This document shows positions 20,748 to 42,693 of a DNA stretch of 44,850 bases, piece after piece. How positions within the stretch are numbered: the first letter of the stretch is position 1; each line of letters begins with the position of its first letter. This DNA comes from an uncultured Bacteroidota bacterium (GTDB lineage Bacteria > Bacteroidota > Bacteroidia > Chitinophagales > Chitinophagaceae): the NCBI GenBank assembly GCA_903926855.1, contig CAIYKV010000147.1, positions 1 to 44,850 of the forward strand, in the 5' to 3' direction. The notes under the pieces are model-generated. The model did not search any database, was not told where the DNA came from, and worked only from the letters and a program-made list of their open reading frames with translations. A program made the position numbers and the translations under genes.

Positions 20748-21257
20748 ATGAATAGGTCCCTCACCAAACAGCAATTAATAGATCTGATTCTGGCCAATAA
20801 AGGGATCATTATCAAAATCTGCAATTCATATTGTTCTGATAAGAATTATCGTGAAGATCTAGGCCAAGAAATCATTTACCAACTACTCAGATCAGGAGAA
20901 AATTTCCAATCAGGAAATAAATTCTCTACCTGGATGTATCGCATTGCCCTTAATGTTGCCATTTCCTTTTACAGAAAACAAAAAACAAATACTCAGGTAG
21001 TTGCTTATACGGATTTGCCTTTTGAAATAGAAGATACTGACGACGGGAAAAGAGAAATGAATGAAAATATATCACGCCTCCAAAAAATGATCAGCCTACT
21101 GGGGCCACTGGATAAAGCAATGATGTTACTCTATCTCGACTCTAAGTCTTATGCAGAAATAGCCGAAGTACTTGACATCACAGAAACCAATGTTGCCACT
21201 AGGATCAGTCGTATCAAAATCCGTTTAAAACAACAATTTAATTATCTCAATCAATAA
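20748..21257 (+). CDS. ECF-type RNA polymerase sigma factor
   Basis: 169 aa; region 2 FSTWMYRIALNVAISFYRK, region 4 LLYLDSKSYAEIAEVLDITETNVATRISRIKIRLKQ. Confidence 0.92.
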   Translation: MNRSLTKQQLIDLILANKGIIIKICNSYCSDKNYREDLGQEIIYQLLRSGENFQSGNKFSTWMYRIALNVAISFYRKQKTNTQVVAYTDLPFEIEDTDDGKREMNENISRLQKMISLLGPLDKAMMLLYLDSKSYAEIAEVLDITETNVATRISRIKIRLKQQFNYLNQ

Positions 21258-21259
21258 TT

Positions 21260-21931
21260 ATGGAGTCCATTGAATTAGCAGAAATCTGGAAAGAATATGA
21301 CAGAAAAATTGATGAGGCAAAAGTCTTGAATTTACAATCCTGGGCCCTGAACCTGCATTGTTTTGAAGCTATACAATTACAAAAGGTAGAATCAAAATTT
21401 TCAAAGCTGGCCGCTTTTAAATTCAGGGCGGTTATCCTGGGACTTATCTGGTTAGCCTTTCTCGGATCTTTGGTATATGCGAACCATATGAAAAACCTTT
21501 ATTTCACTATCTCCCTTGGAGGTATATTTCTGATCACTTTGCTTTCTATTTTTTCCTATTGCAGGCAAATTATCCAGCTGAAAAGCATCCGGTATGATCA
21601 CAATATCCAGGAAACCCAAAAAAGGATTTCAATAATAGAAATCTCCACGCTGCAGAGTTTACGCATTTCCTGGCTCCAGCTCCCCTTTTACAGTACCTGG
21701 TTCTGGAATGATGAATGGATCAAGCATCCGAGTCATAATTTCTGGATGATCGCCTTCCCGATTACGCTTGGCTTTTTAGTGCTAACTCTCTATCTTTTTT
21801 TACAACTTCGCCCGGATAATATTGGACAGAAATGGGTAAAAATTATGTTAATGGCGGGACCAGAATACAAATCCCTGGTTATTGCAAATGAATTTCTGGC
21901 AGAGATTGAGAAAGTGAAGCAAAATTTATAA
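21260..21931 (+). CDS. Membrane protein paired with ECF sigma (candidate anti-sigma factor), 3 predicted TM
   Basis: 223 aa; starts 2 nt after the sigma stop; N-terminal SIELAEIWKEYDRKIDEAK, three hydrophobic segments. Confidence 0.65.
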   Translation: MESIELAEIWKEYDRKIDEAKVLNLQSWALNLHCFEAIQLQKVESKFSKLAAFKFRAVILGLIWLAFLGSLVYANHMKNLYFTISLGGIFLITLLSIFSYCRQIIQLKSIRYDHNIQETQKRISIIEISTLQSLRISWLQLPFYSTWFWNDEWIKHPSHNFWMIAFPITLGFLVLTLYLFLQLRPDNIGQKWVKIMLMAGPEYKSLVIANEFLAEIEKVKQNL

Positions 21932-32596: not shown

Positions 32597-35500
32597 ATGG
32601 TTTTAAAAAAATTAGTCAGAAAGGAATTAATATTATACCTGTTTTCCTTTTCCGCTGTAGCCCAAAATACAACAGGAGATATTGGTGGAACAGTAAAAAC
32701 CCTTACCGGAGAAATTCTCGCAGGTGCCACTATAAAATTGCTGCATGAACCTACAGGCTTATTGCTGTATTCGCAAAGCCGGAGCAGGGGAAATTACAGA
32801 ATACCAGGACTTGTACCCGGTGGTCCATATACACTAGAAGTGTCATTTATAAACTTCCTGAATCAGAAAAAAACAGGGATTTATATTCAATTAGGTGAAG
32901 AAAAAATAATTGATTTCCAATTAGAAAAACAAAGTATCCGATTAGGGGAAGTCCGAGTTTTTGGATCACGCAAAAAAAACGAACCAGGCTGGGATGGCGG
33001 GAATATTCTTACAGAAGAAAGAATATTGAGCACACCCTCAGTAGGCAGGAATTTGCAAGATTATCTTCGGAATTTTCCGCAAGCAAAACTTGTGTCGGGA
33101 AATGAAGGCGCCGTATCAATAGCTGGTCAGAATAACCGATTCAATGCATTTTATATCGACGGAGCAATCAGCAATGATGTATTTGGTCTGGCAGCTTCCG
33201 GCACCAATGGCGGTCAGGCTGGTATTTCACCTGTCTCCATGGAAGCGATTCATCAATTGCAAATGACCATTCATCCGTTTGATGCTTCTTTGGGAAATTT
33301 TACAGGTGCTGGTATCAATGCAGTGACAAAATCAGGTACCAACCGGCAAACCAGTTCTGTGTATCATTTTTTCTCCAATGCCAATTTCATCGGCAAAACA
33401 CCAACCGGATCAAAACAATTAGCCACTAAAGCCGATGGTTTTCAGATGCAGCAATTCGGGGCGAGCTTACAGGGACCAATCTCTATCAATAAAATTTTTT
33501 ATTTTTTTAATTTTGAACTGCAAAGAGATACTCGACCGCAACCATTCTCTTTTAGTGATTATAGAGGTAACACCCATACAAGCCAGCTATTGAACATTTT
33601 AGCGAATACGCTGAAGGGGACTTATGACTATGAGCCAGGCGGGTTTATAAATAATCCCGAAACCTTGCATGCAGACAGATTGACTGCACGTATTGATTGG
33701 GTTGCCAACAACAAGCATAAAATTTCTTTGAGTACCCGCTATTTGCAGGCGCAAAAAGAGAATACCAATGCAAACAATTCTTCGGTGATTCATTTCAGAA
33801 ATGATGGTTATCTTTTGAATACCCATACCCATTCATTTTCCCTGGAATTAAAAAGCAATTTCCTGAGAAACAATGCCAACCAATTCATGCTCACCTATAC
33901 TCAGGTGAAAGATGACCGCGATCCTTTAGGAAAACCTTTTCCCAGGGTACGTATCAATGATGGCAATGGCGCTTTCCTTTTTGGAACAGATAATAGTTCT
34001 ACCAACAATCTGCTGATACAACAAAATTGGAGTTTGTTTGAAAAGTATAGTTTTACGATTTTAAAACATGCCATCAGCCTGGGAATGGATTGCGAATACA
34101 GTAAAGTAATGAATACATTTATTCAAAATAGTTTTGGCAATTATACCTATTTTTCAATTGCCGATTTTCTTACAAATGCAAAACCTACTTATTATCAATT
34201 GGGGTTTTCCCCACGAGATCCGCAAAACAAAGATCATTCGAAAACCGCTGCCCATTTCTCAATCCTCAAAACAGCCATTTTTGTGAATGACAAAATTCGG
34301 GTTAGACCCAATTTTTATGTACAATATGGAGTGCGAGTTGACCAGTACCATTTTATCAACTCCCCTATTGCAAATGATTACACCAATCAGATAGCCATCC
34401 CACAGTATGAAAAATATTGGGATTTACAAGATGCAAGATCAGGGGATGCATTATCTGTTCCTGTTTCAATTTCCCCGAGATTGGGCTTCCGTTATGGCTT
34501 TGTAAAAAACCGTGTTCAATTAAGTGGTGGTGTAGGATTATTTACTGGCAGAATCCCGCTTGCCTGGCCGGGCGGAACTTATCAAAATAATGGATTATTT
34601 GTAGGCGGATATACGGCTGCTCCGGCACAGTTGAATACCATCCGTTTCAGGCCCAATCCATACCAGCAATGGACACCGGCAGAATTGGGCGTCACTGCCA
34701 ATAGTACTACTCTTAATCTGATAGCCAAACAATTCAGTATGCCCCAATTGCTAAGGGCATCATTAGGACTTGAATTGGATTTGCCAAATAACTGGACTGT
34801 AAAGACAGAGATGATGTTAAGCCAACATACAAACGGTATCAAGTATACCAATATAAATATTTTACCTCCGAATGCAAATGCAAAAGGACCGGATAACCGC
34901 TCAGTATATACCATCCTCAACAACGGAAAAATCCCCTTAGAGAGTAATGGATCTAATCCATATAACTATGCAATATTACTGAGCAATTATCGGGGTGACA
35001 ATGGTTTTGCAAAAGATTTTACCGCCGCGATAACCAAAAAAGATCATACGGGTTTATTGCTGGAAGGCTCCTATCATTTTTCTCATTCTGTAACCTTACA
35101 TGATGGCACGAGTTCTGTCAATCAAAGTCAATGGAGGTTTATGGAAACTGTACATGGAAGGAATTCTATTTCATTATCTACTTCCGATTTTAGTGCCGGG
35201 CATAAGATAATGCTGGTATTCAGTAAGCGATTACAAAGCCTCAGAAAAAAATACCAAACCACGATCTCCTTTTCGTATACAGGTGAATCAGGTTCGGGAT
35301 TAAGCTATGTTTATAGCAATGGTAGTATGACAAGAGATGATGGAATCAATGGAGGAAATGACCTGATATATATACCTACCGCAAAAGATCTGGACGGAAT
35401 GATTTTCTTACCTTATACAACAGGAATGCAGGTAGTAACTGCAGAGCAGCAAAAAGGAGCGTTTGAAAAATACATATCACGGGATAGATATCTCAATCAA

Positions 35501-35866
35501 CAAAGAGGCAATTATGTAGAAAGAAATGGAAGCCGAACTCCTTTTACCCATATTGTTGATTTCAAAATAAAACAAGAACTGAATTTTGTGATATCCGGAA
35601 AGAAATACCAGGTTCAATTAAGTCTAGATGTATTTAATATCAGCAATCTTATTAACCGTAACTGGGGGCGCAGGTATTACCAGCCAAATGATAATTTTGC
35701 CCCTCTTGCTTTTATGGGATATCTGAGTGAGACCCAGCTAATTCCTCAATACCGATTTGATCCAAATCAATTACAGTCTGTTCCCTGGATAGTAAGTAAT
35801 AGTCTTTCCCCCTCTTTTACTGCAAGATGGATGGCACAAATGGGTATCCGTTTTACTATTTACTGA
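32597..35866 (+). CDS. Oar-like TonB-dependent receptor with N-terminal carboxypeptidase-regulatory-like domain
   Basis: 1089 aa; GDIGGTVKTLTGEILAGATIKLLHEPTG..., VGRNLQDYLRNFPQAKLVSG plug, GNFTGAGINAVTKSGTN, aromatic C-terminus GIRFTIY. Confidence 0.9.
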   Translation: MVLKKLVRKELILYLFSFSAVAQNTTGDIGGTVKTLTGEILAGATIKLLHEPTGLLLYSQSRSRGNYRIPGLVPGGPYTLEVSFINFLNQKKTGIYIQLGEEKIIDFQLEKQSIRLGEVRVFGSRKKNEPGWDGGNILTEERILSTPSVGRNLQDYLRNFPQAKLVSGNEGAVSIAGQNNRFNAFYIDGAISNDVFGLAASGTNGGQAGISPVSMEAIHQLQMTIHPFDASLGNFTGAGINAVTKSGTNRQTSSVYHFFSNANFIGKTPTGSKQLATKADGFQMQQFGASLQGPISINKIFYFFNFELQRDTRPQPFSFSDYRGNTHTSQLLNILANTLKGTYDYEPGGFINNPETLHADRLTARIDWVANNKHKISLSTRYLQAQKENTNANNSSVIHFRNDGYLLNTHTHSFSLELKSNFLRNNANQFMLTYTQVKDDRDPLGKPFPRVRINDGNGAFLFGTDNSSTNNLLIQQNWSLFEKYSFTILKHAISLGMDCEYSKVMNTFIQNSFGNYTYFSIADFLTNAKPTYYQLGFSPRDPQNKDHSKTAAHFSILKTAIFVNDKIRVRPNFYVQYGVRVDQYHFINSPIANDYTNQIAIPQYEKYWDLQDARSGDALSVPVSISPRLGFRYGFVKNRVQLSGGVGLFTGRIPLAWPGGTYQNNGLFVGGYTAAPAQLNTIRFRPNPYQQWTPAELGVTANSTTLNLIAKQFSMPQLLRASLGLELDLPNNWTVKTEMMLSQHTNGIKYTNINILPPNANAKGPDNRSVYTILNNGKIPLESNGSNPYNYAILLSNYRGDNGFAKDFTAAITKKDHTGLLLEGSYHFSHSVTLHDGTSSVNQSQWRFMETVHGRNSISLSTSDFSAGHKIMLVFSKRLQSLRKKYQTTISFSYTGESGSGLSYVYSNGSMTRDDGINGGNDLIYIPTAKDLDGMIFLPYTTGMQVVTAEQQKGAFEKYISRDRYLNQQRGNYVERNGSRTPFTHIVDFKIKQELNFVISGKKYQVQLSLDVFNISNLINRNWGRRYYQPNDNFAPLAFMGYLSETQLIPQYRFDPNQLQSVPWIVSNSLSPSFTARWMAQMGIRFTIY

Positions 35867-39068: not shown

Positions 39069-39129
39069 TAACTTAGCCGGGAGATTGAATTGTTAAAGAA
39101 CCCTAAATAACAGGCAACGAACCTGCTTA

Positions 39130-39711
39130 TTGGGGTATCTAACTATTGGCCAAACCTCTAAAACTACCCTATCTGTGACAGAGTACGAACTCATTGAAGG
39201 CTGCATCAGGCAGGATGCCCGTTGCCAGCGCATGCTTTTTGACAGGTATGCAGGCAAGATGATGGGCGTATGCCTAAGGTATGCAAATGACTCAATGGAA
39301 GCCGAGGACATGCTCCAGGATGCTTTTATTAAAGTTTTCCAGTATATAGGACAATTTAAGTTTGAGGGGGCTTTTGAGGGTTGGATCCGACGGATTGTTG
39401 TAAATACCGCGATTCGCCATCTGGAGAAGAAGAAATTGCATTTTAAGGATATTGATGACAATAGTCAGGATGCACCACAGATTGATCCTCAGGCCTATAC
39501 ACATCTGGGGCAGGATGATCTGATGAAACTGATTAACCAGTTACCGGAAGGCTACCGCATGGTATTTAACCTGAATGCGATTGAAGGATATAGCCATGAA
39601 GAAATTGCTGTGATGCTGAATATCCAACCGGGTACCAGCCGCAGTCAATTAGTAAAAGCACGTAAAATGCTGCAATACCAAATCATACAACTGCAAAAAA
39701 TTGCTGTATAG
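39130..39711 (+). CDS. ECF-type RNA polymerase sigma factor
   Basis: 193 aa; EAEDMLQDAFIKVFQYIGQFKFEGAFEGWIRRIVVNTAIRHLEKKK; region 4 YRMVFNLNAIEGYSHEEIAVMLNIQPGTSRSQLVKARKMLQ. Confidence 0.95.
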   Translation: MGYLTIGQTSKTTLSVTEYELIEGCIRQDARCQRMLFDRYAGKMMGVCLRYANDSMEAEDMLQDAFIKVFQYIGQFKFEGAFEGWIRRIVVNTAIRHLEKKKLHFKDIDDNSQDAPQIDPQAYTHLGQDDLMKLINQLPEGYRMVFNLNAIEGYSHEEIAVMLNIQPGTSRSQLVKARKMLQYQIIQLQKIAV

Positions 39712-39712
39712 A

Positions 39713-41605
39713 ATGATCGATAATGAATTTGATAATTTCGTCAACGGTAAACTAAAGGACCATGAGGCACCTGTGCCTGCCGGGCTTTGGGATAAGTTGA
39801 AGGATAAGCAATTCGATGATTTTGTTGGCGATTCACTCAAAGACCAAACGGCAGCAGTACCGGATGGGCTTTGGGATAAAATTACAGATGCACAGTTTGA
39901 TCAGTTTTTAGGCAATACAATAAGTGAGTATACGGCGCCTGTTCCTGATGGACTTTGGGCAAAACTGGCTGATGCCAATTTTGATGCTTCTGTACAAGAT
40001 AAAATCGGCAATTATATTGCTCCTGTACCCGAAAGTTTATGGGGTAAAGTGGCTGATGCCCAGTTTGATGCTTTTGTAGGTAGTTCCTTAAAAGATTATA
40101 TAGCACCTGTGCCGGAAGGACTGTGGGAGAAAATTCACCCGGAAGAAAAAGAAGAAAGAAGGATATTTTATTTTCTCAGAATTCCGGCTGCTGCGATATT
40201 CATATTTGCCATTCTTATGGGCGGAACGGCTGCTTATATCTGGTTAAAACCACATTTTGATTCTTCTAGAATACCTGCTGTAACTGGCCTGAGTAAAAAC
40301 CATAATAAACAAGCAATTGATAGCCCAGCTAATACAATAGCACATGACAATCAACCGGAGCCGGTTTCGAATGCAAACACGAATAGTAATCATACTAATT
40401 CAACAGTTCCGGGAAAAGATATTTCTACGACTCCTGTTCCCAATGCACCAAATTCTATTGAGAAGAAAAAAGATATCCTGACTTCCAAAGATCAGGTTTC
40501 GCATGCACCATTGCCTTTTAATCAGGAAAACCTGCCTGTTGTGAACAATAATCATCTGCCTGCTTCAAAAAAGAACAGACTGGATGGTAGTATTGCTAAT
40601 AGGAATAATTTACTAAATGGTTCTGGTAATCCGCTTAGTTCCGGCGATCTGGCTATACAACAGCAGCCTGTTCCGCCTATTACTAAAATTGATTCAACTG
40701 ATGGAGGTAACAATCCCTATATATATATCCCTCCTTATCAGTCAAATTTCTCTGCGATTGCTACGATCCCCTTCCCTGCTTTTACTGGCCTGAGGGATTT
40801 TTCCGGAAAAGAACTTACAGATTATAAACATGCCAGTCAGATAAAAAGCAATATTATTTGTCCAAGTAACCGTAATAACCCCAATACCGATTGGTTTGCA
40901 GAAGTCTATGCTTCTCCTGATTTTGCCGTGAAAAGTTTTTCTAATGTATCAGCCAGTCAGCAATATCTTCTGAAAAAAGACAGTATTGAAAGTATGCGTG
41001 TCGGATTTACTGCCGGTATCAGATTGGTAAAACCGATCAATGAAAATTTTCTGATCAAAACAGGGATACAATATTCACAGATCAACCAGCAATATCTTTA
41101 TCGTACAGAGAATGAGATCAAAACCACGACGGTTGTAACGGTAAGAACCATTGTACGTGCGCCGGGTGATACGGTTGTGATTGCTGATACCAGTGTATTA
41201 CAACAGATTGGTTATAAAAACAATATTGCCAAGAACCGTTTTAGAAGTGTTGATGTACCTGTTATTATCGGATATCAGTTTGGGAATGAGGATATCAAAT
41301 TTGGCATCAATGCAGGTGTCATATTCAATCTTAGTTCCTGGTACCAGGGAGTAATCTTGGATACCTCACTTGCCATTGTACCGCTTACGAAGAGTAATAA
41401 TATGGTGTACAAAACAAATATCGGGATGGGTTTATATGCAGGATTTAGTATAACCAAGCAATTGAGTGAAGACCTGCATATTTTCTTTGAACCTTATTTC
41501 CGTTATAATCTATCGAATATGACCAGTAATCAATCACCTTATAACCAGAAATTTAGTGTTGGCGGATTGTCGATCGGGTTACGGTTTAATTTAAACAAGC
41601 AATAG
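39713..41605 (+). CDS. Trans-envelope candidate regulator: five 28-aa repeats + TM + disordered linker + C-terminal OM beta-barrel-like domain
   Basis: ORF track 39701-41605; likely ATG 39713, 1 nt after the sigma stop; repeats FDxFVxxxLKDYxAPVPxGLWxKI; TM IPAAAIFIFAILMGGTAAYIWL; C-terminal barrel-like strands ending LSIGLRFNLNKQ. Confidence 0.85.
   Translation: MIDNEFDNFVNGKLKDHEAPVPAGLWDKLKDKQFDDFVGDSLKDQTAAVPDGLWDKITDAQFDQFLGNTISEYTAPVPDGLWAKLADANFDASVQDKIGNYIAPVPESLWGKVADAQFDAFVGSSLKDYIAPVPEGLWEKIHPEEKEERRIFYFLRIPAAAIFIFAILMGGTAAYIWLKPHFDSSRIPAVTGLSKNHNKQAIDSPANTIAHDNQPEPVSNANTNSNHTNSTVPGKDISTTPVPNAPNSIEKKKDILTSKDQVSHAPLPFNQENLPVVNNNHLPASKKNRLDGSIANRNNLLNGSGNPLSSGDLAIQQQPVPPITKIDSTDGGNNPYIYIPPYQSNFSAIATIPFPAFTGLRDFSGKELTDYKHASQIKSNIICPSNRNNPNTDWFAEVYASPDFAVKSFSNVSASQQYLLKKDSIESMRVGFTAGIRLVKPINENFLIKTGIQYSQINQQYLYRTENEIKTTTVVTVRTIVRAPGDTVVIADTSVLQQIGYKNNIAKNRFRSVDVPVIIGYQFGNEDIKFGINAGVIFNLSSWYQGVILDTSLAIVPLTKSNNMVYKTNIGMGLYAGFSITKQLSEDLHIFFEPYFRYNLSNMTSNQSPYNQKFSVGGLSIGLRFNLNKQ
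39722..40141 (+). repeat. Coding tandem repeat: 5 x 84 bp (28 aa), no indels
   Basis: Units NEFDNFVNGKLKDHEAPVPAGLWDKLKD / KQFDDFVGDSLKDQTAAVPDGLWDKITD / AQFDQFLGNTISEYTAPVPDGLWAKLAD / ANFDASVQDKIGNYIAPVPESLWGKVAD / AQFDAFVGSSLKDYIAPVPEGLWEKIHP. Confidence 0.97.
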
Positions 41606-41655
41606 CAGGCAACAAACTTAGAATAGATGGTATCTAATATGCGAGTGTAATTTTT

Positions 41656-42693
41656 ATGAAAAAAACAGTATTCATCATCGGGTCATCATTACTTCTTCTC
41701 TTTACTGCCTGCCAGAAAGAGATGTCAACTAATGATATTACCATTTACCCTGGTAATCCCTTGAATGATACGATTTGGACAAGAACCACACCTTCCAATG
41801 GCTCTGTAAATGATCTGGTAAATTATTTTCTCCCACAGGTAATTATCGATTCTTTTGATGCATCCAAATCAGATGTTACTTTAAGTTATGGCGATAGCCT
41901 ATCCATCAGTTTCCCGGCAGGTTCCTGTGTTGGAACTTCTGCTAATGGTGGTACACCGGGGGTTCCCAGCGGTAAAGTGCAATTACAGATATTACGACTC
42001 AAAACAAAAGGAGATTATATCAAGACATTCCGGCCTACTACCAGCAATGGGTATTTACTGGAAGCTGCCGGTGGATTTTTTATCAGGATTCTCTCAGAGG
42101 AAGGAAAAGAATTGGCACTGGCACCGGGTGCAACTGTCAAGTTATCTTTTAGTGATATTGATCCTGTTAAACCCAATATGCAGGCATTTTATGGAAAGGA
42201 AACATACCCGCTCCCTGCCAATAGTGTTATTGATACTGGTTTTACCTGGATGCGGGATACAGATACGAGTTGGCTGAGTACTTTTCAAAGACCGTCTACA
42301 ATTTCCGGCAATGCCATCATTAATGGGTATACGATCAATGTCAAAAATCTTCGTTGGGTAGCTGCGGAAAGATATATTGACAGTACTGCTAAAAAAGCAA
42401 AGATTTTCGCGATTCTTCCACCCAATTTCACCAATAAGAATACCGCTGTATTTGCCGTATTCATGAATCAGAAAACCATCGTAAACTTGACACCTGAATT
42501 CTCTTCCAGATCCTTCACTGCTAATAATATTCCAATAGGCAGTAAGATCCGTTTAATCACGGTTTCTAAAATCGGGGATGATTTTTATATGGGTACAAAA
42601 GATATTAATGATTTGGGGACGAATACAATTTTCTCTATTTCTCCTGATAAAATGGGAGTCACGGGTATTCTTACCTATTTAAACAGCTTATAA
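41656..42693 (+). CDS. Hypothetical lipoprotein in the sigma/beta-barrel cluster
   Basis: 345 aa; lipobox MKKTVFIIGSSLLLLFTACQKE; no firmly recognised domain. Confidence 0.8.
   Translation: MKKTVFIIGSSLLLLFTACQKEMSTNDITIYPGNPLNDTIWTRTTPSNGSVNDLVNYFLPQVIIDSFDASKSDVTLSYGDSLSISFPAGSCVGTSANGGTPGVPSGKVQLQILRLKTKGDYIKTFRPTTSNGYLLEAAGGFFIRILSEEGKELALAPGATVKLSFSDIDPVKPNMQAFYGKETYPLPANSVIDTGFTWMRDTDTSWLSTFQRPSTISGNAIINGYTINVKNLRWVAAERYIDSTAKKAKIFAILPPNFTNKNTAVFAVFMNQKTIVNLTPEFSSRSFTANNIPIGSKIRLITVSKIGDDFYMGTKDINDLGTNTIFSISPDKMGVTGILTYLNSL

Follow-up and report, generated by a model that had tools for sequence, protein, structure and literature searches.

A predicted membrane-spanning anti-sigma factor, whose cytoplasmic part consists of five tandem copies of a short module, is encoded directly downstream of an ECF sigma factor gene in an uncultured member of the Chitinophagaceae (assembly GCA_903926855.1). 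The locus lies on contig CAIYKV010000147.1, positions 1 to 44,850 of which were analysed and are referred to here as the window. The protein is very probably of the Dma type, and we hold with good confidence that the locus as a whole is best explained by a membrane-spanning anti-sigma factor of the Dma/Reo type in which the presumed sigma-binding array is expanded. A first-pass annotation of this DNA had proposed a single chain running from the cytoplasm to the outer membrane (OM), a design supported by family conservation, N-in topology, a floor on linker length and the barrel domain. The novelty that it implied does not stand, as the design has already been published for Dma1/2/3 and Reo; what is new is the expansion of a minimal unit into an array, which has happened repeatedly. 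Features of the locus are collected in Table 1.

Table 1. Predicted features of the sigma/anti-sigma/lipoprotein locus, in window coordinates.
Feature	Coordinates	Strand	Evidence
Predicted ECF-type promoter P1 of the sigma/anti-sigma operon, GGCAAC-N16-GTATCTA	39113..39141	+	Exact motif match; kept in relatives
ECF sigma factor gene	39175..39711	+	Pfam Sigma70_r2, Sigma70_r4_2; orthologs in barrel loci examined; dN/dS 0.006 vs L031
Membrane-spanning anti-sigma factor (Dma-like), 630 aa	39713..41605	+	ORF, Pfam barrel, sigma adjacency, relatives
Repeat unit 1, residues 4-31, presumed minimal sigma-binding unit	39722..39805	+	Unit HMM E 2e-14; 28-residue register
Repeat unit 2, residues 32-59	39806..39889	+	Unit HMM E 8e-10
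Repeat unit 3, residues 60-87	39890..39973	+	Unit HMM E 1e-8; 5 nt changes vs L031, zero amino-acid changes
Repeat unit 4, residues 88-115	39974..40057	+	Unit HMM E 2e-7; 3 nt changes vs L031, zero amino-acid changes
Repeat unit 5, residues 116-143, membrane-proximal	40058..40141	+	Unit HMM E 1e-13
Transmembrane helix, residues ~157-178, predicted N-in	40181..40246	+	Hydropathy maximum; K/R asymmetry in relatives
Asn/Pro/Ser-rich periplasmic linker, residues 179-385	40247..40867	+	Composition; dN/dS 0.37 vs L031; family length
C-terminal OM beta-barrel domain (predicted), residues 386-630	40868..41602	+	PF13568; amphipathic strands; dN/dS 0.019 vs L031
Second predicted ECF promoter P2, 2 nt past the anti-sigma stop, before the lipoprotein gene	41608..41636	+	Exact motif match
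Conserved lipoprotein gene, 345 aa, lipobox ...LFTAC-QKE, predicted sigma target	41656..42693	+	Homologous next gene in 54 loci

The sigma, anti-sigma and lipoprotein genes form a conserved unit, whose third gene and its promoter the first-pass annotation had not mentioned. The product of the first gene matches Pfam Sigma70_r2 (E 1e-14) and Sigma70_r4_2 (E 4e-16), and a comparison with general ECF and Bacteroidota models gave matches that were below cut-offs or generic. Its open frame extends from a TTG at 39130, and the GTG at 39175 is the more likely start because ortholog similarity begins there and a conserved promoter occupies 39113-39141. One base separates its stop codon (TAG, 39709-39711) from the anti-sigma ATG at 39713, which agrees with the first-pass observation of an ORF beginning 1 nt past the stop of an ECF sigma gene. 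That ORF is present as described, except that the length then given, 634 aa, is counted from a TTG further upstream, at 39701. Among the loci examined within the family, the sigma and barrel-protein genes are neighbours in the same orientation, and the spacing between them is typically -4 to +2 nt; the weak match L064 is the clear exception among the family loci listed. The two genes are also adjacent in loci from across the class, and no ORF fusing the sigma factor with the barrel was found.

The genome from which the window comes carries at least two further pairs of an ECF sigma and a membrane-spanning barrel protein (L112 on C258 and L113 on C178), both without the repeat array. Its remaining ECF sigmas are paired with short proteins that lack a barrel. 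Elsewhere in the window, a small sigma-70-like gene followed directly by a gene for a multi-TM protein (20748-21931) looks like a separate pair of sigma factor and membrane partner. A large TonB-dependent-receptor-like protein (Oar-like with a carboxypeptidase-regulatory N-domain, judged by sequence alone) is encoded at 32597-35866, a few kb upstream of the sigma operon and not adjacent to it. No Rfam families were found in the window.

Hydropathy, composition, the Pfam match and a strand test bear out the layout first read from the DNA, namely a soluble N-terminus, one transmembrane (TM) segment, a linker rich in Asn, Pro and Ser, and a barrel-like C-terminus. There is one strong hydrophobic segment in the protein, and K and R are richer on its N-terminal side in 62 of 69 relatives and on its C-terminal side in 2 of 69, which places the repeats in the cytoplasm. 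The segment keeps its earlier reading as a TM anchor, with a predicted N-in topology and no cleavable signal. The linker comprises 207 residues, 35% of them N, P or S, a composition that suggests disorder; across the 69 relatives its length ranges from 147 to 303 (median 179) and never falls below 147. Its sequence diverges while a minimum length appears to be kept, as expected of a tether. An AlphaFold2 model of the full protein, for which the input was the window sequence and that of a 90% identical relative (L031), had a mean pLDDT of 31.6 and is usable for secondary structure at most. Residues 1-180, modelled from the same two near-identical sequences, reached a mean pLDDT of 53.3, and this model has the same limit.

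At the C-terminus (residues ~386-630), the match to PF13568 (OMP_b-brl_2) scores 29.8 bits against a gathering score of 27, and the same family is matched in 41 of 53 relatives (E<=0.01). The alignment profile contains 7 strongly amphipathic, non-overlapping beta segments where 2.2 are expected from column shuffles; 1 of 500 shuffles had as many as 7. This count was run at several thresholds, of which 1.8 and 2.2 discriminate best and lower ones weakly; at the low threshold it is indistinguishable from shuffles. A PDB profile search with the barrel gave no credible match. Family assignment and strand pattern together point to an OM beta-barrel, as the first-pass annotation had suspected.

The N-terminus had been called repeat-rich, a description that is correct but understated. 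Residues 4-143 are five tandem copies in exact 28-residue register, with tryptophans at positions 26, 54, 82, 110 and 138. Self-comparison at a lag of 28 gives 54% identity and a BLOSUM mean of 2.98, whereas the maximum over 1000 shuffles, each taken at its best over all lags, was -0.04. The conserved letters of the unit are FD...F(V)...L......(A)PVP.GLW.K(I/L/V), laid out as a helix (FDxFVxxKLxD), a loop around PVP and then a short helix (GLWxKI); this helix-PVP-helix arrangement is seen in each unit of a low-confidence model. Pairwise identity among the five units is 38-69%, and the array is invisible at the DNA level to Tandem Repeats Finder run on the window. Scored with an HMM trained on relatives that have one copy, unit 1 (45.0 bits) and unit 5 (42.5 bits) rank above units 2-4 (30.1, 26.7 and 22.9); units 3 and 4 lie furthest from the single-unit consensus and may for that reason not bind sigma. 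In most of about 70 homologous pairs the cytoplasmic domain consists of little more than a single copy of the unit, which makes the unit a natural candidate for the sigma-binding element, probably a two-helix module of minimal size. In nearly all loci the unit is kept beside the sigma.

Selection was assessed against L031, a metagenome-assembled relative with 90% identity. The dN/dS is 0.047 for the repeats and 0 for the TM helix, alongside the values for the sigma factor, linker and barrel in Table 1. The repeat region differs by three amino-acid changes in 146 codons, none of them in units 3 and 4. The five-unit array is under purifying selection and, judged by selection, the protein is real and functional.

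Relatives of the protein were found in 77 of 296 genomes of the same family and in 56 of 199 genomes of the order, and within the class the barrel profile has matches in 118 of the 247 genomes searched, many of these matches having the same layout; a plasmid search found no relatives. The common form of the protein is one unit, TM helix, linker and barrel, and its cytoplasmic domain is most often one unit plus a basic juxtamembrane stretch. By the HMM, 53 proteins have one unit, 7 have two, 3 have three, 5 have four and 3 have five. These counts barely shift with the HMM threshold and include some near-duplicates (L031 being a close relative of the window). Arrays of two to five units are spread over several distinct clades, and visual inspection finds them in more distant genomes as well (L073, L144, L147, L151 and L153). 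A tree built from joined sigma and barrel sequences, with the repeats left out, requires at least 8 changes between single and multiple units, gains and losses together. The window's own genus has one unit in two species, four in two and five in this one. These distributions indicate that the multi-unit array arose repeatedly among the relatives. In L011 the units go back to a recent tandem duplication of 93 nt of DNA and share high identity. In L018 and L019 each of the four units is closest to its counterpart in the other protein, so arrays also persist. Three far longer open frames (L076, L077 and L078; 728-1004 aa) match the C-terminal barrel weakly, and L076 carries the short unit and has a sigma gene upstream.

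Promoter searches outline a possible local regulon. P1 and P2 share the element GGCAACnAACnT-N9-GGTATCTAA, and in a whole-genome search they were the only zero-mismatch sites, with one other site at three mismatches. Upstream of the sigma gene, the generalised motif GGCARC-N16-GTATCWA reaches at least 12 of 13 letters in 33 of 75 relatives at a spacing of 16, and in 0 of 75 at the 12 other spacings within 10-22. Behind the anti-sigma gene, 12 of 82 cases reach this level at a spacing of 16, and other spacings give hardly any; the motif is present at the P2 position in all four same-genus genomes with the gene pair, plus several other genomes. The lipoprotein homologue is the next gene in loci across the family and beyond, and gave no informative Pfam match and no credible PDB profile match. 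From the occurrence of the motif at both sites, the sigma factor is predicted to autoregulate its operon through P1 and to drive the lipoprotein gene, its local target, through P2. Apart from P1 and P2, one-mismatch matches across the genome about equal the reversed control, and no wider regulon is claimed for this reason. An intergenic promoter-like site with one mismatch, at position 3284 of C102 (L179:1501-1529), lies ~50 nt upstream of another lipoprotein ORF, a possible further regulon member.

The Dma/Reo-type reading can be put together as follows. The five cytoplasmic modules, each like the single module of the relatives, would most likely hold the product of the ECF sigma gene just upstream. 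The N-in helix would anchor the chain in the inner membrane, the disordered tether of ~205 residues would cross the periplasm, and a barrel of about eight strands would be inserted in the OM. If the OM or the barrel were perturbed, or the barrel failed to assemble, the state of the chain would change, and the sigma factor could be freed by tension, conformational change or linker proteolysis. Free sigma would then transcribe its own operon and the adjacent lipoprotein gene.

How many of the modules work is a matter of degree. A single unit, the first or the membrane-proximal one, may bind the sigma factor, with the rest serving as spacers or surviving as relics of tandem duplication; it is these two units that score best against the single-unit HMM, and single-unit relatives function with one copy. 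We nevertheless consider this unlikely given that the W and the FD...P motif are retained in all five units, that the array is so little changed relative to L031 even where it is most diverged from the consensus, and that the four L018/L019 units have remained distinct and mutually orthologous. We lean towards several units, rather than one, being able to bind sigma. A more tentative proposal is that the array acts as a multivalent sigma sponge, banking up to five sigma factors at one per unit or holding one with high avidity; unit number would then be an evolvable dial for threshold and gain, turned in Bacteroidia lineages by tandem duplication. Alternatively, the differences among the units could mean that the array is a hub for several different ECF sigmas, one per unit. 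This is very unlikely, as multi-unit genomes have 14, 15 and 16 matches to related sigmas and single-unit genomes have 14 and 14, and paralogous sigmas have neighbouring membrane partners of their own.

The first-pass annotation envisaged that the signal might reach the sigma factor with neither regulated proteolysis nor a separate receptor. The way in which the signal is passed can also be read differently. Many ECF anti-sigma factors, such as RseA, act through regulated proteolysis, and a long unstructured linker would suit this mode. Barrel misassembly would lead to a cut in the periplasmic linker, after which an intramembrane protease would free the N-terminus, and the intact chain would pass no direct signal. 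We give this somewhat less than an even chance, and it is compatible with the Dma/Reo-type explanation, from which it differs in the release step only. That the protein is an ordinary OM protein with an unusual N-terminal extension, co-transcribed with the sigma factor and not regulating it, is extremely improbable. Its barrel family is common in Bacteroidota, with 8 PF13568 matches in this genome, but such a protein would not be expected to show strict pairing with this sigma lineage, a conserved short cytoplasmic unit and N-in topology without a cleavable signal, and functional homologues have been published.

The predicted protein has every testable architectural feature of the Dma/Reo class. 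In the available text of the Dma paper, Dma1-3 of B. thetaiotaomicron have an N-terminal anti-sigma domain, a TM helix, a disordered tether and a C-terminal barrel, and they adjoin ECF21 sigmas, Dma3 excepted (PMC13088901); the window protein shares this arrangement and the ECF sigma neighbour. That text describes an anti-sigma domain and leaves repeats unmentioned (PMC13088901), whereas the window protein has five tandem cytoplasmic units. Dma2 is encoded in an operon of three genes, and Das2 is freed when Dma2 is lost (PMC13088901). The third gene of the present unit matches neither DUF4943 nor another Pfam family and so differs, as far as testable, from that of the Dma2 operon as described, and the regulon of the present locus is a prediction. 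A Reo-type anti-sigma factor that spans the periplasm and has an OM barrel was described in P. vulgatus in 2022 (PMC9308784); according to the available text it responds to envelope stress, and its operon is strongly induced (PMC9308784, PMC13114119). Like the window protein, EcfO/Reo of Bacteroides fragilis and Phocaeicola vulgatus combines a predicted periplasm-spanning anti-sigma factor with an OM barrel downstream of an ECF sigma; the likeness is one of described organisation, and repeats are unreported in the available text (PMC9308784, PMC13114119). For both Dma2/Das2 and Reo/EcfO, there is published genetic evidence that the anti-sigma factor restrains its sigma (PMC13088901, PMC9308784, PMC13114119).

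More distant systems offer partial parallels. CnrY has a class II anti-sigma domain whose pair of helices touches both sigma 4 and sigma 2 (PMC7406223). The 28-residue unit is likewise very short, and its roughly two helices might wrap around a sigma factor; the comparison concerns the way of working only, and unlike in CnrY the module is repeated. FecI/FecR/FecA similarly combines an ECF sigma with a membrane anti-sigma factor answering an OM event. The present locus differs in having no TonB-dependent receptor in the unit and in joining sensor and anti-sigma factor in one chain; a Pfam search of the protein found no FecR domain, and the OMP_b-brl_2 barrel is in the same chain. No description of tandem sigma-binding units was found in a literature search that lacked the original Dma1 study.

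Signalling from OM state to transcription by a single polypeptide is a young topic, represented by Dma and Reo since about 2022-2024 and studied in gut Bacteroidales. The window locus adds a clean genetic unit with two predicted promoters and one adjacent target. In addition, one genus offers natural variation from one to five in the presumed sigma-binding units, so that both the stoichiometry and the avidity of anti-sigma control can be tested directly.
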